From an uncultured Halobacteriovorax sp. (GTDB lineage Bacteria; Bdellovibrionota; Bacteriovoracia; Bacteriovoracales; Bacteriovoracaceae), in NCBI GenBank assembly GCA_913061265.1, contig CAJXVS010000002.1:558001-622000 (forward strand): 64,000 nt of DNA. Direction: 5' to 3'. The notes under the pieces are model-generated. The model was not told the origin of the DNA and made no database searches. It was given only the letters and a program-made list of their open reading frames with translations. Of the stretch, positions 40,352-60,372 are shown one piece after another. A program made the position numbers and the translations under genes. Positions within the stretch are counted from its first letter, which is position 1; each line of letters opens with the position of its first letter.

Positions 40352-41512
40352 GTGACTGATATGTTATGCGATTTGAATCAAACAACTCAGCCCATTAGAG
40401 AGTTAAAGACTTTTAATAATTGGGATGTGGTTCCTAAGGGTTGGTATGCCGCCTATAAATCTAAAGATCTAAAAACTAAAAAACCTATTACTAAGAAAAT
40501 CTGTGGCCACCAAGTTGTGCTTTTTAGAACAGAGTCTGGTGAGGCCAAGTGCCTAGATGCCTTTTGTCCCCATATGGGTATGAATCTAGCTAAAGAGGGT
40601 AAGGTCATCGGCGAGGACATCCGCTGTTTCTTTCATCACTGGAAATTTAATGGAGATGGGGATTGCACTGACATTCCCTGTGTTCATGGCAAATCAACTT
40701 CAAGCATGGTGAAAAGGGCCAAGACAATGGCCTATCCTGTTGAAGAGAAATACGGTTACGTATGGGTCTTCTCTGATCCGGTTGCCACTCACCCTGTCTT
40801 TGAGATTCCTGAGCTCGAAGGGCAGGAAGTCATGTTCACTCATCTTGAGCCTTTTAATAGAGTGGCTCATCCTCATATCACAATGATGAACTCAATTGAT
40901 GAACAACATATGAGAACTGTTCATAAGCTTTCTGTGAAGTTAAATGTTGAGCATTGGACTAAAGGGAAGCGCTTTTTTATTGGTTTTAATGGTCCAGTTC
41001 TGACTGATACTTTTATTGGGAAATGCCATAAATTCTTCTTTGGAGACTCTTATAGAAGCTCTGTTTTATTTGAAGACGGAAACCTTGGATTGTTAACGAC
41101 GGGTATCGATATAAAGTTTCTCAATAGATGGAAGATTCCTACTGGCTATTTTATCTTTTCGCATACTTTTATTGAAAAAGGTAAGAATCAAGTCATTCCT
41201 ATTATCGTGACTCCTAGAAGAAAAGGAATCACTGGCTTTCTTTTTTCTTGGGCCTACTTAAGGCTTAATAAGATTTGCATGAAGTACCTTGCTCATCAAG
41301 ATGGGAAGATTATCTATGGCAACTTAAGGTTTCGCCAAGATGGACTTCTCCCTGGGATCGATGGTCCAACAGCAAAATGGATCAGCTTTGTTAATAAGGA
41401 AATTGAGCCTTCTATCTGGTCAAAGTCATTGCTTAGGAAAAAGACCGACAAAGATGAGCCTCTCCAGAAAATAGAGAGCAACTTTAACGAGGTTACTTCG
41501 CAGGATCATTAG
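40352..41512 (+). CDS. Rieske non-heme iron oxygenase 1
   Basis: A 386-aa oxygenase alpha-subunit-like protein. The Rieske 2Fe-2S centre is C72-x-H74 (CPHMG) and C92-x2-H95 (CFFHHW). The mononuclear iron site follows as D183-x2-H186-x4-H191 in NSIDEQHMRTVH, with a conserved late Asp (GIDGPTAKWI) as likely third ligand. The residue after the second Rieske His is His, where most relatives have Gly. Start GTG 40352 has AAGGA 8 nt upstream. It converges on the RND gene with a 20-nt overlap. Paralogous to the proteins at 45462, 49497 and 50591. Substrate unknown. Confidence 0.9.
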   Translation: MTDMLCDLNQTTQPIRELKTFNNWDVVPKGWYAAYKSKDLKTKKPITKKICGHQVVLFRTESGEAKCLDAFCPHMGMNLAKEGKVIGEDIRCFFHHWKFNGDGDCTDIPCVHGKSTSSMVKRAKTMAYPVEEKYGYVWVFSDPVATHPVFEIPELEGQEVMFTHLEPFNRVAHPHITMMNSIDEQHMRTVHKLSVKLNVEHWTKGKRFFIGFNGPVLTDTFIGKCHKFFFGDSYRSSVLFEDGNLGLLTTGIDIKFLNRWKIPTGYFIFSHTFIEKGKNQVIPIIVTPRRKGITGFLFSWAYLRLNKICMKYLAHQDGKIIYGNLRFRQDGLLPGIDGPTAKWISFVNKEIEPSIWSKSLLRKKTDKDEPLQKIESNFNEVTSQDH

Positions 41513-43706
41513 ATTTCTTTTCAAAGAGTAAAAAGAGAGCGGGCAAGAGTAGAAAGTCCGCCGCTAATGCAAAAATAAGAGAAAAGATAACCACTCCACC
41601 TACCAAATAAAAGATCTTAAGATCGGCAAAGAAAAAGGCCGGAAAACTTAGAGAGAATATTAATGTCGTTGCTAGAAGGGCTTTAGAAGTTGAAGCAAAA
41701 GCCGCTCGAATATTTTCTTTCATATCTTTATTGATAAGGGCATTTTTTTTAAGCGCCCATAAAAAATGAATCGTATCATCCACAGCAATCCCTAAAGTAA
41801 TACAAATCATTAAAACTAAATTACTATCAATAGTCATCCCAAGGATATTTAGGAAACCACAAATAAAGAGTAAGGGGAAAAGATTCGGAAGCATTCCTAA
41901 GGCTGCCCATTTGAATGACTTAAAGATTAATAAAAAGATTAGGAAGATAATAAAGAAGCTAAAAATAATTGAAATCAAAAAGTTCTTAACGAGCTTATTA
42001 AAAACAAAGTTTCTAAGTGTGATGAAGCCTCGCTGCTCGATTATAAAGAACTCTTTGTACTCGGCAGATAAGGTATCTATTTTAACAACAAGTTCTTTTG
42101 CTACCTTTGAAGAAGTTGTCTCTAAAAAGGCAATGGCTCGATGGACACCTCTTTTACTATCATAGAAGTTTGAAAAGGCTCCATAGTTGACCATCATAGA
42201 AGTAAGACTTTCTATCCTCTGTTCTTTATCACTTTCAATTTGGTCAAAACTAGATCTGACATAATCGTAATAACCATTGAAAGACTTAACATAAGAGATT
42301 GAAGGAATCGCTTGAATCTTACTCTCAAATTCACTGATCTTTTGATGAATAATTGGGGTAGTGAATGAATCTGATTTCTTGATTAGTGAGTAAGTTAAAT
42401 CAACACTCCCTAAGAAACTAAACTTTTCTTGGAACTTGTTAACTGATTTAGTCAATGGATGATCGTTATTGAACTTGTCGTAGAAGTTGTCATCGATGGT
42501 TAAGTCTTTGGCAAAGAAAGAGAAGATAACAGAAGTGATGATAAAGAGGCCTGCGGTCATCTTCGGAGCGGCAAGAACTTTTTCAACAATGATACTAGTG
42601 TTAAAGCCCGGTAGCTGAATCTTAAAATCATTCTTTAAATCAAAGAGCTTTATGAGAACGGGGAGTAAATAGAAAGTCAGAAGAAAGCAAAAGAGTGTTC
42701 CAAAGCTAGCATAGATTCCTAAGTTACTTACAGGGACGATACTATTTGGGATCAGTGAGAGAAAACTAATGGCAGTCGTTATGGACGTTAATAAGCAAGG
42801 GGTAAAAATCTCAGACTTAACAAAAGCTATCTTTGAGAGGGGATCTTCTGTTTTTGTCTTCAAATAAACAGAGAAATAATGAACAAGATCTGAAGTAGCG
42901 ACGACCAAGATGAAGAACATGGCAAAGCCACTATAGGGGCTAACGCCTCCTTCCATAAAGACAATCAGGTTAATAACACCGGCATAAGAAGTGAGCATGA
43001 TAAAGGAGAAGAGAAAAAGAACCTTTAAAGACTTAAAGAGAAAAAGGATCAGGAGGGCTAAAGAGAGAAAAAGAATAGGAGTCAAGATGACTTGATTTTT
43101 TATTGTATCAAGAAAGTAATAGTACTGAGCTACCTTTGTTCCTATAGCATGGATCTTAAGTCCTTTTGATTGATTTTCAAGTTGGTTTAAAAAGCTTAAG
43201 AACTTCTTAATATTGGCCCGCTCATCTTTGATGTTCTTAAAGCTTCTAAAGTCTCCTGAGATTAAAAGGGAGGTGCCATCTTTACTAACTAAAGTGTTAG
43301 TTAAAAACTCTTTCTTCAATTCATTTTTTAATTCGGTTGAGAACTTTCCTGATTCACTTATAAAGGGATGAAGTCTTACATAGTCTCCTTCGACCTTTAA
43401 AAACTCTTCAGAGTTTAAGCTTCTAAGTTTTGAGACGATATTTCTTCTTCGAAGGCTTAAGTGAATAGACTCTAGTGCCTCAAAGCTCTTTAGCTCTGAG
43501 AAAGCGTCCTCCATTTCTACTAAAATATAAAAAGAGTACTCATCATCAAAGGACTTACTATAATTTTCAAATTCTATTCGAACAGGGCTAGATTCCCTAA
43601 GAAGCTCACCTAGTTTGAAAGGGAGAGTATGCCGACCTAAGTATAGAGAAGTAGTAACAAAACTAAGTCCAGCGAGAATGACTAATGCTTTTTTAAAGTT
43701 GAGCAT
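41493..43706 (-). CDS. RND/MMPL family exporter
   Basis: A 737-aa membrane protein with two repeats, each a TM helix, a large periplasmic loop and five more helices. The first loop spans about residues 30-195 and the second about 400-560. Helix segments carry SYAGVINLIVFM and IAVDDTIHFLWAL, the usual D-containing TM4/TM10-type motifs of MMPL/HpnN-like transporters. This clade often moves lipids or hopanoids, so export of the locus product is plausible. The gene ends inside Rieske 1 on the other strand. Confidence 0.85.
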   Translation of the reverse strand: MLNFKKALVILAGLSFVTTSLYLGRHTLPFKLGELLRESSPVRIEFENYSKSFDDEYSFYILVEMEDAFSELKSFEALESIHLSLRRRNIVSKLRSLNSEEFLKVEGDYVRLHPFISESGKFSTELKNELKKEFLTNTLVSKDGTSLLISGDFRSFKNIKDERANIKKFLSFLNQLENQSKGLKIHAIGTKVAQYYYFLDTIKNQVILTPILFLSLALLILFLFKSLKVLFLFSFIMLTSYAGVINLIVFMEGGVSPYSGFAMFFILVVATSDLVHYFSVYLKTKTEDPLSKIAFVKSEIFTPCLLTSITTAISFLSLIPNSIVPVSNLGIYASFGTLFCFLLTFYLLPVLIKLFDLKNDFKIQLPGFNTSIIVEKVLAAPKMTAGLFIITSVIFSFFAKDLTIDDNFYDKFNNDHPLTKSVNKFQEKFSFLGSVDLTYSLIKKSDSFTTPIIHQKISEFESKIQAIPSISYVKSFNGYYDYVRSSFDQIESDKEQRIESLTSMMVNYGAFSNFYDSKRGVHRAIAFLETTSSKVAKELVVKIDTLSAEYKEFFIIEQRGFITLRNFVFNKLVKNFLISIIFSFFIIFLIFLLIFKSFKWAALGMLPNLFPLLFICGFLNILGMTIDSNLVLMICITLGIAVDDTIHFLWALKKNALINKDMKENIRAAFASTSKALLATTLIFSLSFPAFFFADLKIFYLVGGVVIFSLIFALAADFLLLPALFLLFEKKSNDPAK

Positions 43707-43802
43707 AGAATTCAGGTATAGATTTCCACTATGAAGTTAAAAACCTATCATATACAATTATCTTGAATTAGCTAACCTATAAGTAGGTAAGGGGTCTTTT
43801 GA

Positions 43803-45260
43803 ATGTATAAATGGATGATGGTTGGATGTTTTTTTATCGCTGGTTTTGTTAGTTTTATCACTTATCAAAATAGCGGACCTGATGCTGAGAGGACAATCTC
43901 TTCAGAGACTGAAGATTTCTCAACTGTTAAGGCTGAGGCCGATGCCATCAAAGCGGTAAATAGAGAAATTATTTCTATTAACCACAAAGATCAATTGAAC
44001 GGAAAGATTGATCAAATTCAAAAACTCTCAAATGCTCACCCTGAGTGGCAAGTTCTTAAGCTCTATGCTGCTCTAACAAAGCCACTTAAAAAATTAGAAG
44101 GAATCATGTGGAGGCTTAGACCAGTTGTTGAGTCTTGTGGTGCCTGCCATGTCTCAGCAGTTTCAGCCATTAGAAAAGGCTACTATCAAAAGTATATGAC
44201 TGGTCCTCACTTAGGTGCCATTCTTGATTATGTTGTTGAGCCAACCTTGAGCTTCGATCAATTTGAAACAATTAGAGATGTTCAAGACTTTGCCGTAAAT
44301 CATATCGCTCCAGAATTTGAGGGAGAGAATGGTTCTCTTAAAAAGCTTCAAGAGATCATCGCTTCAACTGAACCAGGTTTCTTTATGGAGTTTGACGCTT
44401 ACCTAGGAAGCGGTTTCTCGGAAGGAAAAAGATTTATCTCTGATAAGAAGCGTTTTTCAATTGTTACCAAAGGAAACCTATACGGGCTAGAAGCCAGTCT
44501 ACAAGGTGGTTTGGCAGCTGTTCATTTCTTTAGAAACTATGATTTAGATGATGGCGTTAAGTTCATCAATACGATGGTAAAGAAAACAGCTCTTAATAAT
44601 GTCTTTGGTAAACTACCTAAAGACGTAACACCAATTGAAACTCTAAGTATTCTAGGGAAAAGAAAGTACCGTGACTTTGGTAAGTCTAGAACTAAGAATG
44701 GTTATACTCCTGAATCAATCCAGGCCAACCTAGACTTAGCTTTCACTTATTACAAAGCAAGTATCGATAGTAGGCTAAGTTCTTTAGAAGAATCAATGGC
44801 CCAGGTTGATGAAAAGAATGATTCTGATTACCTTATAAGTTCTAAGGCCCTTAAATTAAATTACGATGGAAACGTCTCTAAGCTTAAAGAAAAAGTGAGA
44901 ATCCTAGAGAACGCGACAGCCGGGAACGCAACAATCGTAACGAGCCCTAAGACAGGAAAGCAGTTCAAGATTAACCCAAAGGCGATCTTCACTTACCATA
45001 GTGACATCAAGTCTTTCTTACCTGAGAAGTCATTCAAGTCTAAAGACAGAGAGCTTAATAAGAAGCTTAAGAACTCTAAAGGGATCTCTAGAGACTTTAA
45101 GTCTTGGGACTATGAGTATGGTCTTCCGAATGCTTGGAAAGACGCTACCTTTGCTGGACTTCTACCTGAAGCTACCAATGCAAACCTATATGAAATCCTT
45201 CGTAGCTTAAGATTAACTCCTGCTACTGAGGCCATTGCTGGATTAATCCCAGCTCCATAA
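43803..45260 (+). CDS. Membrane-anchored c-type cytochrome-like protein
   Basis: A 485-aa protein with one N-terminal TM helix (MYKWMMVGCFFIAGFVSFITY) and an exported body. One haem c attachment motif, CGACH near residue 115, lies in a helical segment (LRPVVESCGACHVSAVSAI). The rest is helical with no further CxxCH. It might shuttle electrons in the periplasm or be a structural haem protein. AAGGGG precedes ATG 43803. A terminator-like hairpin follows 12 nt after the stop. Its position between Rieske 1 and the oxygenase operon suggests, but does not prove, a shared process. Confidence 0.7.
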   Translation: MYKWMMVGCFFIAGFVSFITYQNSGPDAERTISSETEDFSTVKAEADAIKAVNREIISINHKDQLNGKIDQIQKLSNAHPEWQVLKLYAALTKPLKKLEGIMWRLRPVVESCGACHVSAVSAIRKGYYQKYMTGPHLGAILDYVVEPTLSFDQFETIRDVQDFAVNHIAPEFEGENGSLKKLQEIIASTEPGFFMEFDAYLGSGFSEGKRFISDKKRFSIVTKGNLYGLEASLQGGLAAVHFFRNYDLDDGVKFINTMVKKTALNNVFGKLPKDVTPIETLSILGKRKYRDFGKSRTKNGYTPESIQANLDLAFTYYKASIDSRLSSLEESMAQVDEKNDSDYLISSKALKLNYDGNVSKLKEKVRILENATAGNATIVTSPKTGKQFKINPKAIFTYHSDIKSFLPEKSFKSKDRELNKKLKNSKGISRDFKSWDYEYGLPNAWKDATFAGLLPEATNANLYEILRSLRLTPATEAIAGLIPAP

Positions 45261-45271
45261 CCGACGATCTC

Positions 45272-45293
45272 GGGGGTCTTTTAAGGCCCCTTT
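45272..45293 (+). terminator. Intrinsic terminator after the cytochrome-like gene
   Basis: GGGGTC (45273-45278) pairs with GGCCCC (45285-45290), with one T.G wobble and a TTTTAA loop, then TTT. It is 12 nt beyond the stop codon of the c-type cytochrome-like gene. Confidence 0.6.
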
Positions 45294-45441: not shown

Positions 45442-45461
45442 TCCCATGGAAGGGTCTGAGT

Positions 45462-46547
45462 ATGTCGTCGTTAGAAAACGTAAGAATTTTCAATAACAAA
45501 GATGCAATCATCGAAGGATGGTACTGGGCCCTTAAATCAACTGATCTCAAGAAAAATAAAACAAAGCATTTAAATTTTCTAGGTAAAGAGCTTGCGCTTT
45601 ATCGTGGTGACGATGGTATTGCTCGAGCAGTTGATGCTTACTGCCCCCATATGGGAGCTCATCTCGCGGAAGGTAAGGTTGAAGGTAATGGGCTTCGTTG
45701 TTTTTTTCATGCTTGGAAGTTTGATGAAGCTGGAAAGCTTGTCGATATTCCCTGTAGGGCTAAGACTGACGTCGCAGCTAGTATCAAGACTTGGCCGACT
45801 GAAGAGATGTATGGATTAATCTGGGTCTATACGGGTGAAGCAGCAAAGCAGCCAGTTCCCTATATTCCAGAACTAAAAGAGTTTGAGTTAGATACCTCCT
45901 TTGGAAATAACTTTGTAAAAGAATGTCATCCTAATGTTGTTATGATCAACGCTATTGATGCCCATCACTTTACTTCAGTTCATAACTTACCTGTAAAGGT
46001 TGAGTTTGAAACAATAGTGAGAAGCTCTGATTGTATCGCCTTTGAAAATAGAACCTTTATTCCAAAGACGAAATGGTATCTAAATTTATTTTCTAAGTTT
46101 TACGAGAACTATCTCACTTATAATATGTGCTACTGGAATGCTTCAACTGGCTCAGTCACAGTGGGACCTGACTTTCTTCATTGCCATATTATCTTTGCCT
46201 TAAGACCAAATGCTATAGGTCATGCTGAAGGACAGACTATTCTTGTGACTAAGAAAAGGACAGGGCTAATGGGTTTCTTTGTTAACCCCCTTATCCTTTG
46301 GGCCACTAAGCAAGTAGGGAACTACTTTGGAAAAGGTGATACCGAAGTCTTTAAGACAATCAAGTTCAATTTAAAAACACCTATCAAAGAAGATGACTCA
46401 ATAATTAAATTTGTCCAGCACACCGAGAAGCAAACGACTTGCGATTGGGGTTTTGGAGTAAAAAAAATGCTTGATAACTCAGTAAAGGAAAAGGATTTCC
46501 ATGAAGAAACGCTACAAACTCGTTTCACAAACACTACCAGTATGTGA
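45462..46547 (+). CDS. Rieske non-heme iron oxygenase 2
   Basis: A 361-aa paralogue of the oxygenase at 40352. Rieske ligands are C61, H63, C80 and H83 (CPHMG ... CFFHAW); iron ligands are D166, H169 and H174 in INAIDAHHFTSVH. The residue after the second Rieske His is Ala instead of Gly. First gene of the eight-gene plus operon. ATG 45462 is preceded by GGAAGGG. Its last 47 nt overlap the next gene. Confidence 0.9.
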   Translation: MSSLENVRIFNNKDAIIEGWYWALKSTDLKKNKTKHLNFLGKELALYRGDDGIARAVDAYCPHMGAHLAEGKVEGNGLRCFFHAWKFDEAGKLVDIPCRAKTDVAASIKTWPTEEMYGLIWVYTGEAAKQPVPYIPELKEFELDTSFGNNFVKECHPNVVMINAIDAHHFTSVHNLPVKVEFETIVRSSDCIAFENRTFIPKTKWYLNLFSKFYENYLTYNMCYWNASTGSVTVGPDFLHCHIIFALRPNAIGHAEGQTILVTKKRTGLMGFFVNPLILWATKQVGNYFGKGDTEVFKTIKFNLKTPIKEDDSIIKFVQHTEKQTTCDWGFGVKKMLDNSVKEKDFHEETLQTRFTNTTSM

Positions 46548-47292
46548 ATTAAGAAAGAAAGATACCAAGGCCATGTTTGAGGTTTTCTCTAAGTATTATC
46601 TCAATACTAGCTTTGAGCAATTCATGACTGATCTTTCAGAGAAGGATGTTGTCTTCTTATTAAAAGATTCTGACTCCAGAGAGATCAAAGGCTTTTCAAC
46701 CTTGGTAAACCTCTATGTCGATGTCGCTGGGGTGGAACAACGAGGCTGCTTTAGTGGAGATACTATCTTAGAAAAAGAATACTGGGGACAAGGGACATTG
46801 GGCATCGCTTTTTTAAGGTACCTCTTTGTTCAAAAACTAAAGAACCCCTTCAAGCCTCTCTATTGGTTTTTAATTTCTAAGGGTTATAAAACTTATCTTC
46901 TCATGGCCAACAACTTTAGAAATCACTACCCAAGGTATGAGAGAGTGACTCCTTCAAAGGAGAGAGATGTTATCGCTGCTTTTTCTAAGACTCTTTATGG
47001 TGATTTTTTTAATGAAGACTCTGGAGTTATTTCTTTTTCAAAGGTTAGTTCTAAGGACTGCTTAAAAGCTGAGATCACTCCTATTACTAAAGAGCTTCTT
47101 TTAAAGAATGATCGCATCAAATACTTTGCAACTAAGAACCCTGGCTGGGAAGAAGGCCATGAGCTTGCCTGTGTCGCCGAGATGACCTTAGGTATGCCAC
47201 TTTATTATCAACTAAAAACAATTCGAAAGCAGTGGAAAAAAATGAAGAGAAGCCTTTCTCCTTCTGCCGTTGTTCAAAAGGAAAAAGCTTAA
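46501..47292 (+). CDS. GNAT-like acyltransferase candidate
   Basis: A 263-aa soluble protein. After a core strand (REIKGFSTLVNLYVDVAGVEQRGCFSGDTIL), the segment EKEYWGQGTLGIAFLRYLFVQKL resembles the acyl-CoA pyrophosphate loop (Q/RxxGxG) of GNAT N-acyltransferases. The match is modest. The start at 46501 overlaps Rieske 2 by 47 nt and is backed by AAGGAAAAGGA. Second gene of the plus operon, overlapping the SDR start (TAATG). Could transfer an acyl group to an amine produced in the same pathway; inference only. Confidence 0.5.
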   Translation: MKKRYKLVSQTLPVCELRKKDTKAMFEVFSKYYLNTSFEQFMTDLSEKDVVFLLKDSDSREIKGFSTLVNLYVDVAGVEQRGCFSGDTILEKEYWGQGTLGIAFLRYLFVQKLKNPFKPLYWFLISKGYKTYLLMANNFRNHYPRYERVTPSKERDVIAAFSKTLYGDFFNEDSGVISFSKVSSKDCLKAEITPITKELLLKNDRIKYFATKNPGWEEGHELACVAEMTLGMPLYYQLKTIRKQWKKMKRSLSPSAVVQKEKA

Positions 47293-48143
47293 TGAAAATA
47301 ATTCTTATCACTGGTTCTTCTTCAGGTTTTGGGCTCGAAATGGTTCAAGACCTAATAGGTCAAGGTCACTTCGTGATTGCCACTTTGAGAGGAGCGACAG
47401 AGCGTGCCAATATCTTTGATAGCATCTCTGATAAATCAAAACTTAAGATCTTAACTCTAGATGTTTGTTCAAAAGAAGATATTAAAGCCGCTGGAGAATA
47501 TGTAAAAACTGAGCACGATGGCAGCCTCGACGTTTTGATTAATAATGCAGGTTATGGTCTCTATGGAGCCTTAGAAGATATAAGCGAAGAGCAGGTCCGG
47601 CATCAAATGGAAGTTAACTTCTTTGGACCAACTTTACTAACTCAAGAGCTCCTTCCTTTTCTAAGGAAAACAAAAGGAAAGGTCATAAATATCTCTAGTG
47701 TTATGGGAAGATTTTCTCTTCCTCTTGGCTCAGTTTATTCTGCCAGTAAGTTCGCTTTAGAAGGCCTAACTGAAGGACTCTACTATGAGTTAAAACCTTT
47801 TGGAGTTCAGGTGTGCGCAGTTCAACCTGGAGCTCACCGTACGGGCTTTGTTAAGGCCATGATTTGGGGAGATAAGAGTAATAATGAAGATTCTCCTTAT
47901 ATCAATCAAACCAATGGACTCTTAAGAAACGTAGAAGAGATGACTTCTAAGCCAACGGCCACAGGTAGTGATAATGTAAGTAAGATCGTTACCAAGTTAA
48001 TTAATAAGAAAAGAATGCCAAGAAGAGTCCTTGCAGGGAAAGATGCTGTTGCTACGGGTATAGCTCAGAAGTTTCTACCTGAGGCGCTTTATCATGAAAT
48101 CCTTCATAGAAGTTATGAAAAAGTCTTTGGAAGTGAAATATGA
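47292..48143 (+). CDS. Short-chain dehydrogenase/reductase
   Basis: A 283-aa NAD(P)-dependent oxidoreductase. Cofactor motif TGSSSGFGLEM (TGxxxGxG) at residues 7-17, NNAGYGLYG near 83-91, catalytic Ser in INISSVMGR and YSASK near 151-155. ATG 47292 overlaps the previous stop (TAATG); the longer frame from 47232 lies inside the upstream gene. It probably interconverts an alcohol and a ketone in the locus product. Overlaps the next gene by ATGA. Confidence 0.9.
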   Translation: MKIILITGSSSGFGLEMVQDLIGQGHFVIATLRGATERANIFDSISDKSKLKILTLDVCSKEDIKAAGEYVKTEHDGSLDVLINNAGYGLYGALEDISEEQVRHQMEVNFFGPTLLTQELLPFLRKTKGKVINISSVMGRFSLPLGSVYSASKFALEGLTEGLYYELKPFGVQVCAVQPGAHRTGFVKAMIWGDKSNNEDSPYINQTNGLLRNVEEMTSKPTATGSDNVSKIVTKLINKKRMPRRVLAGKDAVATGIAQKFLPEALYHEILHRSYEKVFGSEI

Positions 48144-49048
48144 AATCACAGAACTTGATCGTTGACGTAGAAGTCAATTCTACAAGTTCAACAGATTTAA
48201 CTAATTTACTTAAGAGAAAATTAGGAGAGAAGACTATTCCTGATATTTCAGAATTAAGTGACCTTTGGGGAGCGGACTCATTTGACCTACAAACTGTAGA
48301 TCTTTTTAAAGAGGCCACCCTTTCAGAGAAGAAAATGATCCTAGAGGATTGCGCCCGAACTAGATTAGAAGAGGCCTATCATATTGAGAAGTCGGGAATG
48401 GCCTTTACTTCAAAGATGACTTTACTTGCAGACACTCTTGATGAGAGAAAACTTTATTGTCAGTTTAGTGCTGACGAGGCCAATCACTTAGAGGCCATAA
48501 GCGCTTTTCTTCCTAATATAAGTGACAACTATAAGACCAATCCCTTTATTCAATTACTAGGAGATATCATAAGCACTGGCTCAAGAAGGCCGCTTATTTT
48601 TATCATTCAAGTCTTGCTTGAAGGTTGGGGTATAGATCACTATCAAGGAATGTTTAACACTTGTCATTCAATTGCTCTTGGAGAAGTACTCTCAAAGATT
48701 ATTAAGGACGAGGCGGGACATCATGGAAGTGGTCTTATGCTCTTTGATGAAAAGGAGATGACTCCGACTGAACATAAGTACGTCGTTGATACCTTAAGGA
48801 TCTTCTTTCAGATGGTTCAAGTAGGATCAGTGGGAACTCTTGATTCAATTGAAAAAGCGAGAGGGGATTTAAGTAGGAGCCAGAAGATTGGCGTTCTGCA
48901 CCAGATAGAAAGCCAGGAAAATGCTAACCGAAAATTAAAGGTCTTGAAGAAACTCATGCATAAGGCCGAAAGTAATAGAATCATCGAAGAGCTTGAAAAG
49001 TATAATTGCTTTAGCGCCTTTGATTATCAAACTGTTGTTCAAGGATGA
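48140..49048 (+). CDS. Ferritin-like diiron protein
   Basis: A 302-aa helical protein with a probable diiron centre. E78 (with H81 in EAYH), E113-x2-H116 (DEANH), E161 (LLEGWG) and E191-x2-H194 (DEAGHH) fit four helices of a ferritin-like oxygenase. The 35-residue step from E78 to E113 equals that in AurF (E101-E136), though AurF's extra His is not seen. Oxygenase or desaturase chemistry is likely; the family name is uncertain. It sits fourth in the plus operon, 4-nt overlaps on both sides. Confidence 0.65.
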   Translation: MKSQNLIVDVEVNSTSSTDLTNLLKRKLGEKTIPDISELSDLWGADSFDLQTVDLFKEATLSEKKMILEDCARTRLEEAYHIEKSGMAFTSKMTLLADTLDERKLYCQFSADEANHLEAISAFLPNISDNYKTNPFIQLLGDIISTGSRRPLIFIIQVLLEGWGIDHYQGMFNTCHSIALGEVLSKIIKDEAGHHGSGLMLFDEKEMTPTEHKYVVDTLRIFFQMVQVGSVGTLDSIEKARGDLSRSQKIGVLHQIESQENANRKLKVLKKLMHKAESNRIIEELEKYNCFSAFDYQTVVQG

Positions 49049-51709: not shown

Positions 51710-52479
51710 GCATCCGAAAAGCGAGTCTTGAAGAATGGTTTCTTATCCATCAATTGAGTCATATCAAAAAGAATCATTTTCACCTTCCTTTTTATCTAAC
51801 GATTGATATTACCAAGCTTGTAAAATTCTATGAAAGTAAGAATGAGAAACTTCCCATGACCGCCCTTTTAATTAAGGCCAGCGCTCTTATGGCGAAAAAA
51901 CACCCCGAAGTTAATAGAATCGTCTTTAGAACCTTTTATGGTATAAGAATTCTTGATCCCGCTTATATCTCAGTCAACTTACCTATTATGATTAGGTCTG
52001 AGGGAAAGAGTTACTTAGCCGCTACTGTTCTCGAAGATGCAGATCAAAAGACAATCTTAGAGATCAACGAAAAGATTAAGAAGGCCTTAGGGCAGGAGAT
52101 GTCTGATTTAAAGATTGGTAAGTACGTCTATAATAAATCAAATAATATCTTCAATAGATTAAGACTTAGGTTTATTCATTTTATGGTGAATAACTTTCCA
52201 AGCATTCATGAGAGCTTTGGTGGCGGTGCTATTGCTGTCAGTTCATTGATGAATCATAATCATCCAGACTTTGATATGTCGATGATGGCCTATGGACCTA
52301 CGGGCTTTACGATTGGCTCATGTCATTTAAGCGAGAAAAATAATAAGCACCTTTTGAAGGTTGGTATTGCCTATGATCACTTCGCCTTTAGTGGTGAGAA
52401 GTCGATTGAAGCCACTAAGGATTTAAGCTTGATCCTAACCGGTAGGGACGAGGAAGATTTTCTTCATTTAACTAGCTAA
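51706..52479 (+). CDS. CAT-fold acyltransferase (2-oxoacid dehydrogenase acyltransferase-like)
   Basis: A 257-aa protein resembling the chloramphenicol-acetyltransferase-fold catalytic domain of E2 acyltransferases, without a lipoyl domain. The catalytic-type motif is YDHFAFSG near the C-terminus, matching DHRxxDG, with a long AIAVSSL segment before it. TTG 51706 is 7 nt after CGGAGG and overlaps the Rieske 4 stop (TTGA); TTG 51700 is too close to the site. Such domains transfer acyl groups from CoA to small acceptors. Last gene of the plus operon. Confidence 0.65.
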   Translation: MSIRKASLEEWFLIHQLSHIKKNHFHLPFYLTIDITKLVKFYESKNEKLPMTALLIKASALMAKKHPEVNRIVFRTFYGIRILDPAYISVNLPIMIRSEGKSYLAATVLEDADQKTILEINEKIKKALGQEMSDLKIGKYVYNKSNNIFNRLRLRFIHFMVNNFPSIHESFGGGAIAVSSLMNHNHPDFDMSMMAYGPTGFTIGSCHLSEKNNKHLLKVGIAYDHFAFSGEKSIEATKDLSLILTGRDEEDFLHLTS

Positions 52480-52951: not shown

Positions 52952-54933
52952 TAATACTTCTCTTTCTTCCCCTCATCCTCAGTGCCAATGAGATTCCTTT
53001 TCAAGACTTCTTTAACTTTATTGAAGTCGATCAGAATTCTTATTTTTCTCCGGGCCTTAATAAGAACTCTTGCTCTGTTGAAGTTGGTCAGGAAAGTAAA
53101 TTCAACCTACCTCAATGTGTCGCCAGTATTTGCGGAACGGATAAATTTAAGTTCTTTGGACTACAAACCAATCCCTATATGATTCTCGCCTGTTCAGAGG
53201 ACCCGGATCTTCCTTTATGTGAGGGGAACGGTTATGAAAAATATTACGGCGACCTTCGGGAGCTTCGAGAGTCTATCGCTGAATATTTTCCCCTAGAGCA
53301 AGACTTTGTAGAATCTAGGTTAAAGTCCTCATTAAAGTTTATCAAAGAACCTAAATATAATAATTCAAGTCTCGATAACCTAAGCTTAAATATTACTGAC
53401 CTCTTTTCTTTTGTCTTTTCTTCACCAGAGTTCTTTGAGACGAGGGAACATAAAGAAGGTGGGATTAATATAAAGTTTAAATCCACTAAAAATTTAAAGG
53501 TGAAGTTAAGGTCTAAGTTTAATATTGGCAGATTAGAGTCTAGAGCCGCTGTAAAAGCCTTAAAGGCCATCTTCGAAGATACTAATTCTATCTTTGCTTT
53601 AGAGTACTTTGGAGTTGATTTTGTTCTTTCAAATGTTTTGACCCCTTTGGAGCAAAAGGATCCTATCTCCTCTCTTAGAAAAAGGAAATTTAAGGCCTTA
53701 GACAAAATAAAAAAGTCGCTCGGAACTAAGACTATTGACCCTGAGAGCATTGAAGGAAGTCTATCTGACGCTGCTGCAGATGAAGAAAGTCTTCTTCAAG
53801 ATGTCTTAGCTTTAGAAGCAATATCCGGGTTAAGAGCATCAGAGCTTAAAACCTTAAGTAAGCCAGACTTTACAAGGCCTTCGTATTATATCAACCCTAA
53901 GTATTCTCCTGATTGGTCTGATCCTAATAATAAAGAGAAGTTCTATACTACAACTGAGCATATCGAAAATATGCTTAGCTTCTATGATGGAATGGAGACC
54001 AAGATTGATTCCCATGAGCTTAATGCCTATATGATGACAATTTTAAATAGCCTCAATATTCTTCCTGATGAGAAAGAAGTAGAGAAAGCAAAAAGGGACT
54101 CTAAAGAGTACTTAGAGAGTTTCTTTAATAGTTTTGAAAAAGAATTCTCAAAAGAATCCACTCACGATATTAAAAGTGAAGTGGGCTCGCTTCATTTAAA
54201 TTTTCCAGAGACAAAAAAGGAATATATTGAAAAGATTAAAAGTTGGCTAAATTCTAGAAAAGGAATCCTTCTCGATTATAAAAAATTAAGAGAATCTGAA
54301 AATGGAGTTAAAGGGACTGAACTCATTGGACGGGGATTACTTCAAGATCTTATGATGGGAACAGGTGCTTCCTCTGGGCTTAATGAGTTTGTTGATGAGC
54401 TAGCAGTCAACCCTATCCCAGATCTTTACTTAGGCGCTTACAATGGAATCAAGGTTGGTCCGGTTGCTGTTAAAGATTTTTCAAATAAAGGAAAACAAAT
54501 CCTCGCCCATGAACTAGGCCACCATGTTGGGCATTTTATGGAGAAATCAAGGCTTTCAAACAAAACGACTTTTAAATTCAAGTCCACAAGAGAGTGCTTA
54601 GCTTCCTCCCATACTGAAGAAGTAGGTGAAGAAGTTAATATGAAGCTCTCAACAAATAGATCTAAAAGAGTGAGGTGGAAAGAGAATATGTATTCTGAAG
54701 AAGACTTCGCCGATTGGATCGCCTCAAAAGCGTCGGACTCCAATATGGCCTGTTTATTTGTCAAAGACCTGGTCTTAGATGTCCCTGATAAGGACTATTT
54801 TAAGAATAAAGATAGTAAGGATACGCATTCAAGTGCAGTCTATCGGTTGCTAAATATTGAGTTAAATCAAAAAGGAAGGCTACCAGCATCCTGTCAAACA
54901 GACCGAGTTAAACTCTGCCCTAAGACTAAGTAA
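52939..54933 (+). CDS. Secreted HExxH protein, putative zinc metalloprotease
   Basis: A 664-aa exported protein (signal peptide MYKIVILLFLPLILSA). A long central helical region of charged repeats (residues about 150-430) leads to AHELGHHVGHF near residue 530, a clear HExxH zinc motif. The downstream DFADWIASKAS region could supply the third ligand. Several cysteines in the last third (CLASSHTEE, MACLF, PASCQTD, LCPKTK) suggest disulfides. No family recognised beyond the motif. Starts 13 nt inside the small secreted gene and converges on the GH3 gene with an 8-nt overlap. Confidence 0.7.
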   Translation: MYKIVILLFLPLILSANEIPFQDFFNFIEVDQNSYFSPGLNKNSCSVEVGQESKFNLPQCVASICGTDKFKFFGLQTNPYMILACSEDPDLPLCEGNGYEKYYGDLRELRESIAEYFPLEQDFVESRLKSSLKFIKEPKYNNSSLDNLSLNITDLFSFVFSSPEFFETREHKEGGINIKFKSTKNLKVKLRSKFNIGRLESRAAVKALKAIFEDTNSIFALEYFGVDFVLSNVLTPLEQKDPISSLRKRKFKALDKIKKSLGTKTIDPESIEGSLSDAAADEESLLQDVLALEAISGLRASELKTLSKPDFTRPSYYINPKYSPDWSDPNNKEKFYTTTEHIENMLSFYDGMETKIDSHELNAYMMTILNSLNILPDEKEVEKAKRDSKEYLESFFNSFEKEFSKESTHDIKSEVGSLHLNFPETKKEYIEKIKSWLNSRKGILLDYKKLRESENGVKGTELIGRGLLQDLMMGTGASSGLNEFVDELAVNPIPDLYLGAYNGIKVGPVAVKDFSNKGKQILAHELGHHVGHFMEKSRLSNKTTFKFKSTRECLASSHTEEVGEEVNMKLSTNRSKRVRWKENMYSEEDFADWIASKASDSNMACLFVKDLVLDVPDKDYFKNKDSKDTHSSAVYRLLNIELNQKGRLPASCQTDRVKLCPKTK

Positions 54934-56464
54934 GAAATTTATCATCAAAGGAATCAAGAAGAACACTTGGTTTTATATCTCCAAGCTTCATGCCTTTTTT
55001 CTCTTGCATATAACTTAAGACTCTCTCATTCATATCTTTTTTATAGATAGTCTTTAAAGGTCCAAGCGTTCCAAGCTTTCTTGCCACTTTATAATGATAG
55101 GCCTTCATAAGGGAGCCCTCTATTAGCTTCTCTAAATTTTCATCTTGGTTATCAGTGAGTAGGGTGTAGTAACCATGATCTTCATTTATTCTTGTGGGAA
55201 AAAAGAGGTAGTAGTTCTCTGTCTTTAATTCTTGCAAGATGCTCGTGAGAAAACTTCGGTGGAGCTTCTCACCAAAAAGATCAGAGGTCTCATCTCCTCT
55301 TCCCATAAACTCGAGGCAAGGGGTTTCTTTATAAAAATGAGGAACCTTTATTCTATCCCCTAAAAGATAGCGGTAAAGGCCGCTGGGAGTGGTGATAACG
55401 AGTTGATAGAGCTCTCCTCCTTTTAATTCATGCAGGAGGTGAAGCTTTCCATCTTCAGAGATAAATTCAAAGAAAATGCTTTCTAAAAGAGGAACAAAGG
55501 AATTTGAGGCGATAATTGGAATTGTTATAGGAGCTTCAGTTGCAAGAAGACCTTTTGCCTGAATAAAAACAGAAGGAAAGATCTTTTTTAATTTTTTAAA
55601 GCCTGGTTTGGCCTCAAGATCCCCCCAAGAACTAATCAACTTAAGGCGAGGCCAAATTTCAAGCAGAGAAGACTTTCTTATGGTCTCGATCCTTTCACTA
55701 GCTATGGCCTTAAACTTAAAAGAATGTCCTTCAATAACTGAAGTTCCTTTTTTAAGGTCTATGATTAACTCTTCTCGATTGTCTTCTATATAATCAAGGA
55801 GGATTGTAAAAGTCGAAGGGTTCCAGATGCTGATAATCTCTAAGTCTTTTTCAGCGAGAAGATGTAAGGCTAAGGCCTTTTTAAAAAGAATGGGATCCTT
55901 AATAAGCTTTATTTTTTTTGGTGTGACAAAGAAGGGTCTTAAAAACCAAGAAAAGAATCCATCAATATAATCACTATCATCTTGAAGAACATCTTCAGTA
56001 TCTTTAAATTGAGGGCTGACTGAAAAATAGAATTTACCTGTCTCAAAGGAGGGACCGTTCTTAATTAAGTCGATCACCCACAATGAAAACATTTGAGAAA
56101 AGGCGGACTTTAGCTCGAGTGTGTAGGGGATGTACTTCTTTGCACCGCTTGAACCACTTGTCGGCTCATAGAAAAGGACAGGGCTTGGTGAGAAGTGATT
56201 GCTCATCTTCTCTCTCATTTTATCTATATGATGAGAAATATCATCAAAGCCCACTAGAGGAACCTTTTCTTGAAACTCTTTTATTGAATTGATATGTCCA
56301 ATCTCTTTTCCATAAGAACTTGAATTAAAGGTATCAACAAGCCTCTTAAAGACTTTCTCTTGAGCCTCTCTCGGAGCTTTCAAGGCCTTGTTAAAGAAAA
56401 GCTCTCTAGGGAGAAGCAATAGCCTTAGGAATAATTTAATAAGCGGAGAGAAAAAAGAGATCAC
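54926..56464 (-). CDS. GH3-family acyl-adenylating enzyme
   Basis: A 512-aa relative of plant GH3 amido synthetases in the ANL adenylating superfamily. Motif 1 reads FYEPTSGSSGAKKYIP, then LISSWGDLEAKPG and TPSGLYRYLLGDRIKV, with LEFMGRGDETSDLFGEKL near the C-terminal domain switch. It activates a carboxylate with ATP and usually joins it to an amino acid or amine. I place the start at GTG 56464, 4-nt overlapping the previous stop (GTGA) and preceded by AGAGGA; ATG 56497 lacks such a site. Last gene of the six-gene minus operon. Confidence 0.85.
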   Translation of the reverse strand: MISFFSPLIKLFLRLLLLPRELFFNKALKAPREAQEKVFKRLVDTFNSSSYGKEIGHINSIKEFQEKVPLVGFDDISHHIDKMREKMSNHFSPSPVLFYEPTSGSSGAKKYIPYTLELKSAFSQMFSLWVIDLIKNGPSFETGKFYFSVSPQFKDTEDVLQDDSDYIDGFFSWFLRPFFVTPKKIKLIKDPILFKKALALHLLAEKDLEIISIWNPSTFTILLDYIEDNREELIIDLKKGTSVIEGHSFKFKAIASERIETIRKSSLLEIWPRLKLISSWGDLEAKPGFKKLKKIFPSVFIQAKGLLATEAPITIPIIASNSFVPLLESIFFEFISEDGKLHLLHELKGGELYQLVITTPSGLYRYLLGDRIKVPHFYKETPCLEFMGRGDETSDLFGEKLHRSFLTSILQELKTENYYLFFPTRINEDHGYYTLLTDNQDENLEKLIEGSLMKAYHYKVARKLGTLGPLKTIYKKDMNERVLSYMQEKKGMKLGDIKPSVLLDSFDDKFLT

Positions 56465-57135
56465 GGAATATAGTCCTCTTTTTTCTTTATAGGCCATCTC
56501 GGATGTTTGTATTTTAAGTCGTGTTTCTTAGGGATATACTCATCTACGTATATATCTGAGAGAACAGGAAGAAAGCAGCCCGCTTCTATTTCAGCCCCTG
56601 GGCCGAGCCTAGATCCAGCGCCGACAAAGGTACCTTCTCCGATGACTATGTTCTTAGAGTAAAGGCTGAAGTTTCCTTTTTTTCCACCTACAACATGACT
56701 GATAAGCTCAACCTTATGACCAAAGAGAACATAGTTTCCAATCTCAACCATAGAGCGGTCATCGATCTCAACATTTGGTGTCCAATAAACGGCCTTTCCT
56801 ACTTTTGATCCCCACAGCCTAAGCCATAGTGAATAGCCACCGGGGATAACTCTTAAGAAGGCTTCAAACTGAGGCACGACGTAAAAAAGAAGTTGAATCT
56901 GATGTCCGCCCCACCAAGGTGAATACTTATCTTTTGCTAGATCACTTTTGCCTTCCTTAATAGGGAAGAATAATCCCATGACCCTGAAACTAATAAGGGG
57001 AAAGAGATAGATTGCTCCTATGATAAATAAAACCGTGCAAGCACTTGGTTCTTTTGCAAAGCAAAATAGGCTGATAAAGATCAAGATTCCATGGAGAAAA
57101 GGAAAGAGGGTCATGGCCTTACTTAAAAGTGTCAT
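56461..57135 (-). CDS. Membrane-linked hexapeptide-repeat acyltransferase
   Basis: A 224-aa protein. Two hydrophobic helices at the N-terminus (FPFLHGILIFISLFCFA; TVLFIIGAIYLFPLISFRV) are followed by a left-handed beta-helix made of hexapeptide repeats (VGKAVYWTPNVEIDDRSMVEIGNYVLFGHKVELISHVVGG ... IVIGEGTFVGAGSRLGPGAEIEAGC). The WcaF-like layout implies acyl transfer to a membrane-near acceptor. Overlaps both neighbours by 4 nt in the minus operon. Confidence 0.8.
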   Translation of the reverse strand: MTLLSKAMTLFPFLHGILIFISLFCFAKEPSACTVLFIIGAIYLFPLISFRVMGLFFPIKEGKSDLAKDKYSPWWGGHQIQLLFYVVPQFEAFLRVIPGGYSLWLRLWGSKVGKAVYWTPNVEIDDRSMVEIGNYVLFGHKVELISHVVGGKKGNFSLYSKNIVIGEGTFVGAGSRLGPGAEIEAGCFLPVLSDIYVDEYIPKKHDLKYKHPRWPIKKKEDYIP

Positions 57136-57854
57136 TTAGAGCTCCGAAAGGGATAGATCAATGATCTTAAAAGCCCTTGATTAAGTTTAATCCCTAACTT
57201 TAAAGGGGCACTGTCTTCTTTTTTATAAGTGCCATGGAGTTTATCCCATATATTTAAATTGGCTCCAAAGTTTAGATGAGGAGAACTTGAATGATGCCAG
57301 TGATGATCTATTGGATTTAGAAGAAAGAGCTTATCTCTTAAGAAGCTAGGTCCATAAAAGGAGGAATGCTTCCAAAGGTCTAATCCTGCTCCAAGACTTG
57401 CGGCCAAGATGTAGAAGCTTGGGTCTTTTAATAAGAAGATAAAGAGAGAATTGGCCCAAACATAAATGATGAGGAAAGTAGTCCAAATCGTGTTTCGGCT
57501 AGTCCCTAAGACATCCATGCTTTCAATAGAATGATGGACCTTATGCATCTGCCACAGGCCATCAAGATGGAGCAGCCTATGATTCCAATAATAAAGATAA
57601 TCGATAAGGATAAAATTAAGTAAAAATGCCAAAAGAGGAGAGAGTTCAAGTATGCCTTTAAACTCTGGGGCTAGGTAGTTCAATATTTGATAAAAGAAGA
57701 TCGTCTGTAAAAGAGGAACTAAGATTCCTTGAATGGGGAGGTTCACTAAGTCTAAGACCCAGTGATCAAAAGACTTTTGAAGCATTTCCTTTCGCTTTGA
57801 AGTTGAAGCGAGAGTAAGAATCATTAATAAAACAAAAGCTATAGTTGAAATCAT
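57132..57854 (-). CDS. Fatty acid hydroxylase / sterol desaturase superfamily protein
   Basis: A 240-aa integral membrane diiron enzyme. The eight-histidine pattern is clear: WNHRLLH (HxxxH), MHKVHH (HxxHH) and NPIDHHWHH (HxxHH), with TM helices at 1-20, 40-65, 75-95 and 130-155. Such enzymes hydroxylate or desaturate long-chain lipids or sterols in the membrane. It sits third from the end of the minus operon, with 4-nt overlaps. It is the best hint that the locus works on a lipid-like substrate. Confidence 0.88.
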   Translation of the reverse strand: MISTIAFVLLMILTLASTSKRKEMLQKSFDHWVLDLVNLPIQGILVPLLQTIFFYQILNYLAPEFKGILELSPLLAFLLNFILIDYLYYWNHRLLHLDGLWQMHKVHHSIESMDVLGTSRNTIWTTFLIIYVWANSLFIFLLKDPSFYILAASLGAGLDLWKHSSFYGPSFLRDKLFLLNPIDHHWHHSSSPHLNFGANLNIWDKLHGTYKKEDSAPLKLGIKLNQGLLRSLIYPFRSSK

Positions 57855-58903
57855 ACCCAGAACTCAAATTCTTGTTCTCTATTCTTTAAGAGCCTTGGGT
57901 CTGCGCCTTTTTCAATCTCTTCTCGGATTGATTCAATAAAGACGTGAACAATATCCGCTTTTGAATTACTAAAGTCTGTCCCATATTTTTCAATGACTTT
58001 CATTTGATTTTCTAAGACGACGATATCTTGGTCAATAACTGATTGACCTTGGTATTTAACAATCGGGGCGGCTAAGAAATTCCAAGCACCGAACTTAAAG
58101 GTAAGGTCGGTATAAACCCAAGAGGTGGTGTCATCGACTGGGACTGTTTGGCTGGTGATATGAAATTCTCGACCAGGGGAGAAGATATATTCAACAGAAG
58201 TGACATTAGGCATATGGAAGAAGTCTTTATGGACGATCTCTCCACCTTTAGGATTAAGAAACCAGCTAAACCAGCCTAGGTTATTTGTTTCATTTCTATA
58301 ATCAATCTCAACGGAACCATTGATTCTTTTGCAGGTGGCCTCTACCTTTTCCTGACGGCTTACTCTAAAGATTTCGTCATGAACAAAAACGGTGTGAGGA
58401 ACATCAACATAGTTCTCTGCACAGTTTGTGACATTGTTTTTAAAGATATTAAAAAGGCGGACTGTCTTATATCCACTTTCTTTATAATGAGGCATAGAAT
58501 ATGGCTTAGTTTCCATTTCTGGATTATTCTCAAGCCTTACAAAGATAAAGTCATCTTGCTCTATACACTCATATTTTTGGGCAGACCTCGTGGATAACTT
58601 CTTTTGATTTGGTCCTTCTGCAGGAATATTAACCACGGAGCCTTCTTTATCAAAAGTCCATCCATGATAAGGACAACGAAGGCAGCCATCTTTGACGGCG
58701 CCTTTAGAGAGCTGATAGTTCCTATGAACGCAGCGGTCTTGAAAAGCTACTGGGTTTCCATCAGAGTCTCTAAAAAGAACAATCCACTCATCTAAGATAG
58801 TTCTAGCTATAGGCTTATCTTTACTAAGTTCCTTACTTTGGCAGGCGATATACCAGAAATTCTTGAAGTTAACTTTATTTTCCAATGGACTTGAACTCCA
58901 CAT
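57851..58903 (-). CDS. Rieske non-heme iron oxygenase 5
   Basis: A 350-aa Rieske oxygenase of the ring-hydroxylating/pheophorbide-type layout. Cluster ligands C58, H60, C77, H80 in CVHRNYQLS ... CPYHGW; mononuclear site D167, H170, H175 in NYVDVPHTVFVH. Here Gly after the second His is retained, and overall sequence is not close to Rieske 1-4. ATG 58903 overlaps the ferredoxin gene by 29 nt; TTG 58885, behind a GGAG, is an alternative start. Third gene of the minus operon, right after its likely electron donor. Confidence 0.92.
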   Translation of the reverse strand: MWSSSPLENKVNFKNFWYIACQSKELSKDKPIARTILDEWIVLFRDSDGNPVAFQDRCVHRNYQLSKGAVKDGCLRCPYHGWTFDKEGSVVNIPAEGPNQKKLSTRSAQKYECIEQDDFIFVRLENNPEMETKPYSMPHYKESGYKTVRLFNIFKNNVTNCAENYVDVPHTVFVHDEIFRVSRQEKVEATCKRINGSVEIDYRNETNNLGWFSWFLNPKGGEIVHKDFFHMPNVTSVEYIFSPGREFHITSQTVPVDDTTSWVYTDLTFKFGAWNFLAAPIVKYQGQSVIDQDIVVLENQMKVIEKYGTDFSNSKADIVHVFIESIREEIEKGADPRLLKNREQEFEFWV

Positions 58904-59171
58904 CTGATGTTATGATTATTTGGCAAGCCAAGCGTGCTTTTGAATTTTCAGGCGCAAAGACTTCTAGGATTTCACTCTCTGCCTTATTAGCAGGCTCAAG
59001 ACTTTCAAATCCTTTTGTGACTTCTACTAAGCAAGTTCCACAAACTCCCGTGCGGCAGCCGAAAAGAACAGGACTATTAGAAGAGTTTAAGACGAGACTC
59101 GGATTGCTCCCGCTCTCGACTTGAATCTCTTGGTAGTCCTCTTGAAAAGTTACTGTACAAATATTGCTCAC
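58875..59171 (-). CDS. Plant-type 2Fe-2S ferredoxin
   Basis: A 98-aa ferredoxin. Cluster ligands are C39, C44, C47 (CRTGVCGTC) and C83. GTG 59171 is preceded by GAGGA at good spacing, and no better start exists nearby; TTG 59183 would add four residues. It is the only ferredoxin seen in the window and lies between the AurF-like diiron enzyme and Rieske 5, so it probably feeds electrons to the operon's oxygenases. No ferredoxin reductase is present. Its first 95 nt overlap the upstream gene. Confidence 0.9.
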   Translation of the reverse strand: MSNICTVTFQEDYQEIQVESGSNPSLVLNSSNSPVLFGCRTGVCGTCLVEVTKGFESLEPANKAESEILEVFAPENSKARLACQIIITSDVEFKSIGK

Positions 59172-60372
59172 TTTTATCCTCAAAACCCTTAAAGGCCCTT
59201 TTATTAATCTTGATATATTGTTCGATACTGGCCCTTGTCATATATTTCATCTCTCTATTATTTTTAGAAAGATAAGGAAGACCACTTACATATTGTTGAT
59301 AAGATTCTTTAGCAATCTTATGTGTCTCATAGGCTAAATGCATGGCCTGATTTTCTTGAATAAAACAAGACTCCATCATTCTAAGCGCGCTTACATGGTC
59401 GTATTCAAAATAAGGGCTTCTTAAAATTTGATAGATCACTGGAAAGACGGCTGGTTCATACCAAAAGATTCCATTCACAGAAATATTAAAGTTTTGATGA
59501 TCTAGCTGACATCCTTGTATTCCAAGATTAGCGATTGCGGATTCAAACTTAGTCGGGGCCTTTAAGGTATGAACAACGTCATGGCCTATGATTGAGCTTG
59601 AATTGAAATGATAACTCTCATCTAAAAAGTGATGATAGGAGATCTTACTGGGAATAGGAGCATTTTCTTTGTCTTTATGATTTTCATAGAACTGACTTAG
59701 TTCATGTTGAACAATCTTTCCATTTAGGGTTCTAAGTCCTCTTACCGTAAAGTATTGGCAGGCAATGAAAGCATTATTTGAAGAAAGTAAATTATAAGCG
59801 TTAAGCTGAATCGACTTCCAAAACTTTTTCACTCTATTTGTATTTTGGAAGATCATGGTTTCTGTAGCGTAGTTCTTCATAGGGTAGGTAAAGAGCCTAT
59901 GACCAAAGAGCTTCTCTTCGACTTGTTCTGAGATAGTTTTAAAAGCGTGAATATGTCCACGTTCCTGGCTTGATTCTAAGTCTAAGGTGTCGCAAACAAG
60001 GCGAAAATCCTCTAGTGAATAAAGCCCAGCAGCTGAAGTTTGATTTAAAAAGATAGTGGCAATCTCTGCTGAGATGATTTGGCTATAGTAGGCCACCCAG
60101 TAGAGTTGATTTAATAATACTTTTTGAGAAGGACTTGAGGCATGCCATAGAGGAGTTGCATAAAGAAGCGAGTACTTCTCAGGATTCCAGTATTCATCTC
60201 TACAGTCTTCAAAATTGAATTGACTTGATAAAAGATCAAGCTCATCTACATTGTCTTGCTCCTTATTTCGGCGCAAGTTAATCTCTAGCTTTTTAGTCGT
60301 GAGTTTATCGTCGAGTAGGGACTTATCAGTATGTTGAAACAGTGATTTGTTCAATTCGCCTTCCTTAGCCAT
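59077..60372 (-). CDS. AurF-like diiron oxygenase
   Basis: A 431-aa protein with a diiron pattern like p-aminobenzoate N-oxygenase AurF. E103 (SAEIATIF), E137-x2-H140 (QERGHIHAF), and H248-x3-E252-x2-H255 (HHFLDESYH) reproduce the AurF spacing E101, E136/H139, H223, E227/H230; E224 may be the remaining Glu. Family members oxidise amines to nitro or hydroxylamine groups. The last 30 residues (SRGLPRDSSREREQSESRLKLF) are polar and overlap the ferredoxin gene, so the tail may be a later extension. First gene of the minus operon. Confidence 0.75.
   Translation of the reverse strand: MAKEGELNKSLFQHTDKSLLDDKLTTKKLEINLRRNKEQDNVDELDLLSSQFNFEDCRDEYWNPEKYSLLYATPLWHASSPSQKVLLNQLYWVAYYSQIISAEIATIFLNQTSAAGLYSLEDFRLVCDTLDLESSQERGHIHAFKTISEQVEEKLFGHRLFTYPMKNYATETMIFQNTNRVKKFWKSIQLNAYNLLSSNNAFIACQYFTVRGLRTLNGKIVQHELSQFYENHKDKENAPIPSKISYHHFLDESYHFNSSSIIGHDVVHTLKAPTKFESAIANLGIQGCQLDHQNFNISVNGIFWYEPAVFPVIYQILRSPYFEYDHVSALRMMESCFIQENQAMHLAYETHKIAKESYQQYVSGLPYLSKNNREMKYMTRASIEQYIKINKRAFKGFEDKSEQYLYSNFSRGLPRDSSREREQSESRLKLF

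Follow-up and report, generated by a model that had tools for sequence, protein, structure and literature searches.

Gene content and organization of the locus

The analyzed window is a 64,000-nucleotide stretch of contig CAJXVS010000002.1 from an uncultured Halobacteriovorax sp. (assembly GCA_913061265.1), whose genome of ~4.0 Mb is 99.75% complete. Evaluation of ORF calls and Pfam matches showed that 20 kb of this window encode five intact Rieske oxygenases (RO1 to RO5), two diiron proteins, an 8-His hydroxylase, a ferredoxin, a short-chain dehydrogenase/reductase (SDR), three acyltransferases, a GH3 enzyme, an RND protein, and a c-type cytochrome (Table 1). This inventory confirms an earlier sequence-only reading, with the acyltransferases, previously counted as two or three, now being three: one of GNAT fold, one CAT/E2-like (PF00198), and one of hexapeptide type (PF00132). 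Further Pfam matches comprise FA_hydroxylase (PF04116), GH3 (PF03321), ferredoxin (PF00111), SDR (PF00106), and MMPL/RND (PF03176). Among the window genes scanned, no acyl carrier protein (ACP) match was obtained.

Table 1. Genes of the oxidative locus, with positions referring to the window.
Feature	Position	Strand	Remark
CylC-type diiron (dimetal-carboxylate) radical halogenase homologue (CylC), Rieske-cluster clade	59077..60372	-	profile, motifs, structure model
2Fe-2S ferredoxin (Fdx), probable electron donor	58875..59183	-	overlapped by 3' end of halogenase frame
RO5, Rieske oxygenase, DdmC/NdmA/SxtDIOX-like	57851..58903	-	
FA_hydroxylase/sterol-desaturase superfamily 8-His membrane oxygenase (FAH)	57132..57854	-	nearest NCBIfam model OlsE, below cut-off
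Left-handed beta-helix (hexapeptide) acyltransferase (Hex)	56461..57135	-	N-terminus hydrophobic
GH3 acyl-acid amido synthetase	54926..56497	-	nearest NCBIfam model OlsH, below cut-off
RO2, Rieske oxygenase, SxtDIOX/SxtT-like	45462..46547	+	core
GNAT-fold N-acyltransferase	46501..47292	+	core; fold, without Pfam match
SDR	47292..48143	+	
Ferritin-like diiron oxygenase (Fer)	48140..49048	+	core; 4 Glu, 2 His
Mpo1-like membrane protein, putative 2-hydroxyacid alpha-dioxygenase	49045..49500	+	
RO3, Rieske oxygenase, KshA-like	49497..50594	+	core
RO4, Rieske oxygenase	50591..51709	+	optional module with adjoining CAT/E2-like gene
CAT/E2-like acyltransferase (AcT)	51700..52479	+	catalytic His present, Asp of HxxxD absent
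RO1, extra Rieske oxygenase	40352..41512	+	41% identical to RO3
MMPL/RND transporter, HAE3/HpnN-like	41493..43706	-	accessory
Putative c-type cytochrome, single CxxCH	43803..45260	+	accessory; recurs in Bdellovibrionota

The two overlapping operons of eight and six genes postulated before were also recovered. The first run (45462-52479, forward strand) is ordered RO2-GNAT-SDR-Fer-Mpo1-RO3-RO4-AcT and the second (60372-54926, reverse strand) CylC-Fdx-RO5-FAH-Hex-GH3, with every junction in both runs overlapping, mostly by 1-4 bases. The genes between the runs (52550-54933; a hypothetical and a metallopeptidase-like protein) are genus-restricted and lie outside the pathway set. Comparison with the sister genomes revealed that the RND-cytochrome pair (41493-45260, versus 10531-14404 in locus L010) is inverted in the window and that RO1 is present in the window only. 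At the other flank (60465-63040), a highly divergent YdiU/SelO-like protein is followed by an S51 peptidase, a pair found adjacent to the cluster in the sister genomes and in genome G021, and not beyond.

Rieske oxygenases and accompanying enzymes

All five Rieske proteins carry the CxH..CxxH and [N/G]xxDxxHx4H motifs, and the locus hosts five of the seven Rieske domains of the ~4 Mb genome. Rieske substrates are not readable from sequence. The best solved relative of RO3 is the steroid enzyme KshA, and the model of SdmA, acting on 4-methylsterols, matched RO3 partially (88 bits) and RO5 with 70 bits. In combination with a hydroxylase from the sterol-desaturase superfamily and an RND protein near HpnN, this could point to a pathway tailoring sterols or hopanoids. 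We consider such a pathway very improbable, as the SdmA scores are far under the cut-off of 600, no squalene-hopene or oxidosqualene cyclase occurs in the near-complete host genome, and a triterpene cyclase was found in only two (G021 and G172) of the ~30 Bdellovibrionota genomes harboring the halogenase homologue. The missing triterpene cyclase largely refutes a substrate of this kind; a triterpenoid derived from prey would rescue it.

The ferritin-like protein conserves E83, E113xxH116, E161, and E191xxH194. For the putative Mpo1-like protein, orthologues pass the PF06127 cut-off of 24 bits (26.4 and 34 bits), while the window protein itself stays below (15 bits). The GNAT fold was assigned by Foldseek (E 8e-7, probability 1.0 to GNAT enzymes), and Z scores in a separate structural comparison reached 12.5. 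Across these clusters, the CAT/E2-like acyltransferases retain the catalytic His and have lost the Asp of HxxxD.

A CylC-type halogenase homologue with a clade-wide Gln signature

The two diiron proteins had been described jointly as ferritin/AurF-type. This holds for the ferritin-like one, whereas the presumed AurF-type gene encodes a homologue of the CylC-type diiron radical halogenases. A profile of four orthologues matched type I PKS-adjacent CylC homologues in the same cyanobacterial genomes (E~1e-36), and blastp gave an E value of 2e-47. The family motifs ExxQExxH and HxxDExxH (PMC12871659) as well as the first-helix Glu are invariant in 103 of 103 orthologues and in each of 16 homologues taken from other types of cluster, among them FAAL-ACP-PKS (carrier-protein/PKS-type) clusters and a carrier-free P450/sulfotransferase cluster. 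Active-site residues of the window protein are E103, E133, Q136, E137, H140, H248, D251, E252, and H255, with Gln222 replacing the Glu of other CylC homologues.

An AF2 model (pLDDT 85) gave weak Foldseek matches by itself (E 0.07), and a PDB sequence search with the halogenase profile returned no relative. After structural re-alignment (VIA), AurF ranked first (Z 18.1, with 289 residues aligned at an rmsd of 3.8), followed by CmlI (Z 17.1) and R2 proteins (16), in line with the AurF-like structure reported for CylC (PMC12101540). An identity as AurF-like N-oxygenase was rejected based on a PF11583 score of 13.4 against a cut-off of 29.6 bits and a Gln at the Asp position of DExxH. Although AurF and CmlI, both arylamine N-oxygenases, are the top structural matches, they differ by an identity of ~9-12%, by Asp instead of Gln in (Q/D)ExxH, and by the seventh metal ligand, which is lost in the window protein. 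With CylC and NocO it has in common a fold like that of AurF, all but one of nine active-site residues, and a plausible ferredoxin dependence, NocO being a CylC homologue that works in vitro with ferredoxin/ferredoxin reductase (PMC12101540). It differs in being 27-28% identical to PKS-type homologues, in lacking an ACP partner, and in having Gln at the position of NocO E252.

This position is occupied by Gln in 103 of 103 members of the Rieske clade and by Glu in 16 of 16 homologues from other cluster types; the Gln therefore marks the Rieske-cluster clade. Wang et al. noted that "a small subset" of family members has Gln at this position, so that Glu is not strictly defining; in the present sample, their subset is the Rieske-cluster clade. 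NocO E252 is a catalytically essential, non-liganding residue (the E252A variant is inactive), with ligand E196 as the equivalent in AurF. Because the clade carries Gln where NocO needs Glu, halogenation by its members is putative.

The uniform exchange and the inactive NocO variant would also fit an enzyme that acts on the same lipid within the same cluster as an oxygenase or desaturase, leading to a highly oxygenated product without halogen. The remaining oxidative enzymes of the cluster are all oxygenases, and Eusebio et al. allow for CylC homologues that do not halogenate. We still rate an oxygenase or desaturase function as unlikely, since the halogenase-specific Gln of ExxQExxH (Asp in AurF) is retained and the AurF ligand Glu is wholly lost, which, if anything, opens the proposed halide site. 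Given the placement of the gene in a halogenase family, halogenation is likely the signature step of the locus.

In the phylogeny, the 103-row Rieske-cluster clade is split from PKS-type CylC with 100% SH-aLRT support. The closest named relatives are Halobacteriovorax MAGs, showing ~80% identity over the halogenase homologue. A search of plasmids yielded no Rieske-clade member and only four homologues of ~30% identity. On a Stanieria plasmid typed as conjugative (AP017376.1; MOBP, MPF_T), a CylC homologue is accompanied by P450 and sulfotransferase genes. One cyanobacterial genome (locus L183; G387:C56:73238-75869) hosts a tandem duplicate of Glu-type CylC homologues, which are short (~410 aa) compared with the longer PKS-type homologues.

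Assignment to a cluster class and occurrence across phyla

The sequence-only reading was not aware of any published cluster with these genes, a statement that the analysis does not support. Rieske-containing clusters were reported by Eusebio et al. 2021 as the most frequent type of CylC-homologue cluster in cyanobacteria, described without product or carrier protein and with fatty-acid intermediates proposed as substrates (PMC8406957). The locus almost certainly belongs to this class: both share one CylC homologue, several Rieske genes, a sterol-desaturase/FA_hydroxylase protein, acyltransferases, and a carrier-free composition, and the CylC homologue of the window falls in the clade found in clusters of the Eusebio type. 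In contrast to the two to four Rieske genes reported there, the window has five, and it adds the module of RO4 and CAT-like enzyme, the RND protein, the cytochrome, the two-operon layout, and a marine bacteriovoracalean host. Our literature search found no paper tying a product to Rieske-containing CylC-homologue clusters.

A scan of GTDB species genomes delivered 123 relatives, of which 80 were retained. The cluster was detected in ~8 phyla (Cyanobacteriota, Bdellovibrionota, Pseudomonadota, Elusimicrobiota, Planctomycetota, Acidobacteriota, Myxococcota, and Melainabacteria), the two Acidobacteriota loci containing few of the core genes only. A core of 11 genes was defined. Within 53 untruncated loci, Fdx was found in 52, Fer in 50, RO2 in 49, GNAT in 48, FAH in 47, RO5 in 45, Hex in 43, and RO3 and GH3 in 40 each, statistics that are conditional on the halogenase homologue, via which the loci were collected. 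Against these 40-52 occurrences per core gene, the window's flanking genes outside the core were present in zero to one locus. The ferredoxin adjoins the halogenase homologue gene in 52 of the 53 loci, and the SDR is recognizable in fewer (11). As an optional module, RO4 is paired with the CAT-like enzyme; clusters of other lineages frequently contain an amidohydrolase and an Mpo1-like gene, and the RND/cytochrome pair recurs only in some loci. Within the window's own phylum, ~30 of 369 sampled genomes carry the cluster (a 31st match being too weak to count), and 20 whole-genome loci agree with the core co-occurrence.

The median span was 10.5 kb in the 69 loci with at least nine core genes, with gene order and strand being reshuffled. 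Two convergent runs with genus-specific genes between them could be taken for two or more unrelated operons that are neighbors by chance. This has a negligible probability, as one and the same cluster occurs in ~8 phyla despite the reshuffling; the conserved co-location in the 53 untruncated loci rules out chance adjacency. The proposal of one oxidative biosynthetic locus is thereby strongly supported: the genes stay together in relatives rather than occurring apart.

In an independent search, eight of 39 relatives possessed the ferritin-like gene, which in six of them is part of this cluster; the other two matches (~31% identity) adjoin heme-oxygenase-like oxidases. In two Bdellovibrionota loci (L016, 12961-15205, genome G007; L020, 10270-15147, genome G038), a ferritin-like relative adjoins a hexapeptide acyltransferase with a heme-oxygenase-like diiron oxidase nearby, while halogenase and Rieske genes are absent. 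In L020, this oxidase is fused to an FkbM methyltransferase and located beside an FA_desaturase-like gene. Both loci may constitute a second oxidative lipid cluster.

Core-gene distances are correlated across loci, compatible with co-transfer or shared vertical descent. A single architecture is common to Pseudomonadota, Melainabacteria, and SZAS-4. This architecture and a 99% supported clade, obtained in a quick tree with long branches, suggest horizontal transfer of the cluster.

GH3 enzyme, membrane hydroxylase, and a proposed aminolipid scaffold

The GH3 protein scored 120.9 bits against PF03321 (cut-off 23.6) and conserves all three nucleotide motifs (TSGSSG..K, ATE, GLYRY..GD). It is a core member of the cluster, a new finding since GH3 is unnamed in Eusebio et al. 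The nearest curated model is OlsH, a lyso-ornithine lipid synthetase and the only characterized bacterial GH3 relative found, which uses ATP to join ornithine and a free fatty acid to N-acyl ornithine (PMC12493201). With 52.9 bits against an equivalog cut-off of 620, the window GH3 is, judged by score, a relative of OlsH and not a member. A Ser that OlsH cannot do without is likewise invariant in the GH3 proteins of these clusters; the GH3 of the cyanobacterial locus L084 gave no OlsH match. Correspondingly, OlsE is the nearest curated model of the hydroxylase for the window protein (55.4 bits) and three orthologues (54-68 bits overall, cut-off 475), the ornithine-lipid hydroxylase and its counterpart here having the FA_hydroxylase superfamily in common.

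The planctomycetal OlsH/OlsI ornithine-lipid pathway (PMC12493201), in which OlsI acts as O-acyltransferase, resembles the locus in a GH3 with three nucleotide motifs and predicted carrier-free fatty-acid amide formation. It differs in that the window GH3 is far below the OlsH model and located amid oxygenases and a halogenase homologue. The proximity of GH3 to OlsH and of the hydroxylase to OlsE suggests a carrier-free route. The host genome encodes one GH3 only, at this locus, and no OlsB-type N-acyltransferase was found in it. Taken together with the conserved Ser and motifs, this favors an N-acyl amine or aminolipid scaffold. A lipid-derived, oxidized, and acylated product, as guessed before, is plausible, while the polyamine origin offered alongside has no evidence of its own.

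The same kinship to OlsH and OlsE, the membrane enzymes, and the MMPL transporter would also suit a constitutive remodeling of membrane lipids into a modified ornithine-lipid-like lipid instead of a secreted specialized metabolite. We see this as a serious but somewhat unlikely explanation, considering the patchy occurrence within the phylum and a halogenase homologue with three to five Rieske enzymes, which is unusual for bulk lipids.

Proposed pathway and implications

The analysis shows gene content, intact active-site motifs, co-conservation across phyla, and clade membership; substrate, order of steps, halogenation, export, and product are inferred. We lean toward a lipid composed of fatty acid and amine that would be built carrier-free and subsequently halogenated, oxygenated, and acylated. 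The GH3 enzyme would use ATP to adenylate a free fatty acid, which it would then couple to an amine; by analogy with OlsH this amine is probably an amino acid. A carrier protein would not be needed for such a reaction. The CylC-type diiron enzyme, supplied with electrons by the adjacent ferredoxin, would then take a hydrogen from an unactivated C-H bond of the lipid and rebound a halide. Together with the 8-His membrane hydroxylase, the Rieske and ferritin-like diiron enzymes could introduce further oxygen functions or unsaturation, with the Mpo1-like protein and SDR possibly trimming the product or adjusting its oxidation state. Acylation would fall to the GNAT, hexapeptide, and CAT-like enzymes, and the RND protein may carry the product to the envelope.

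The locus is a real, intact, and conserved cluster of a known but uncharacterized kind, with a larger Rieske set than described and an unexpected host, and in cyanobacteria few other cluster classes contain CylC-like enzymes as often as this one. To this class, the present analysis adds a much wider range, the 11-gene core, the clade-wide Gln, and a GH3 with OlsH kinship; taken together, these point to a substrate class that can be tested and would explain why a carrier protein is absent. As a tentative proposal, the Gln-clade enzyme could be a carrier-protein-independent diiron C-H functionalizer of GH3-made N-acyl amine lipids, giving rise to halogenated, multiply oxygenated aminolipids in many bacteria, including predatory Bdellovibrionota. 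If the proposal is true, a wide range of bacteria make a new class of such lipids. For biocatalysis, a C(sp3)-H halogenase independent of a carrier would be useful.
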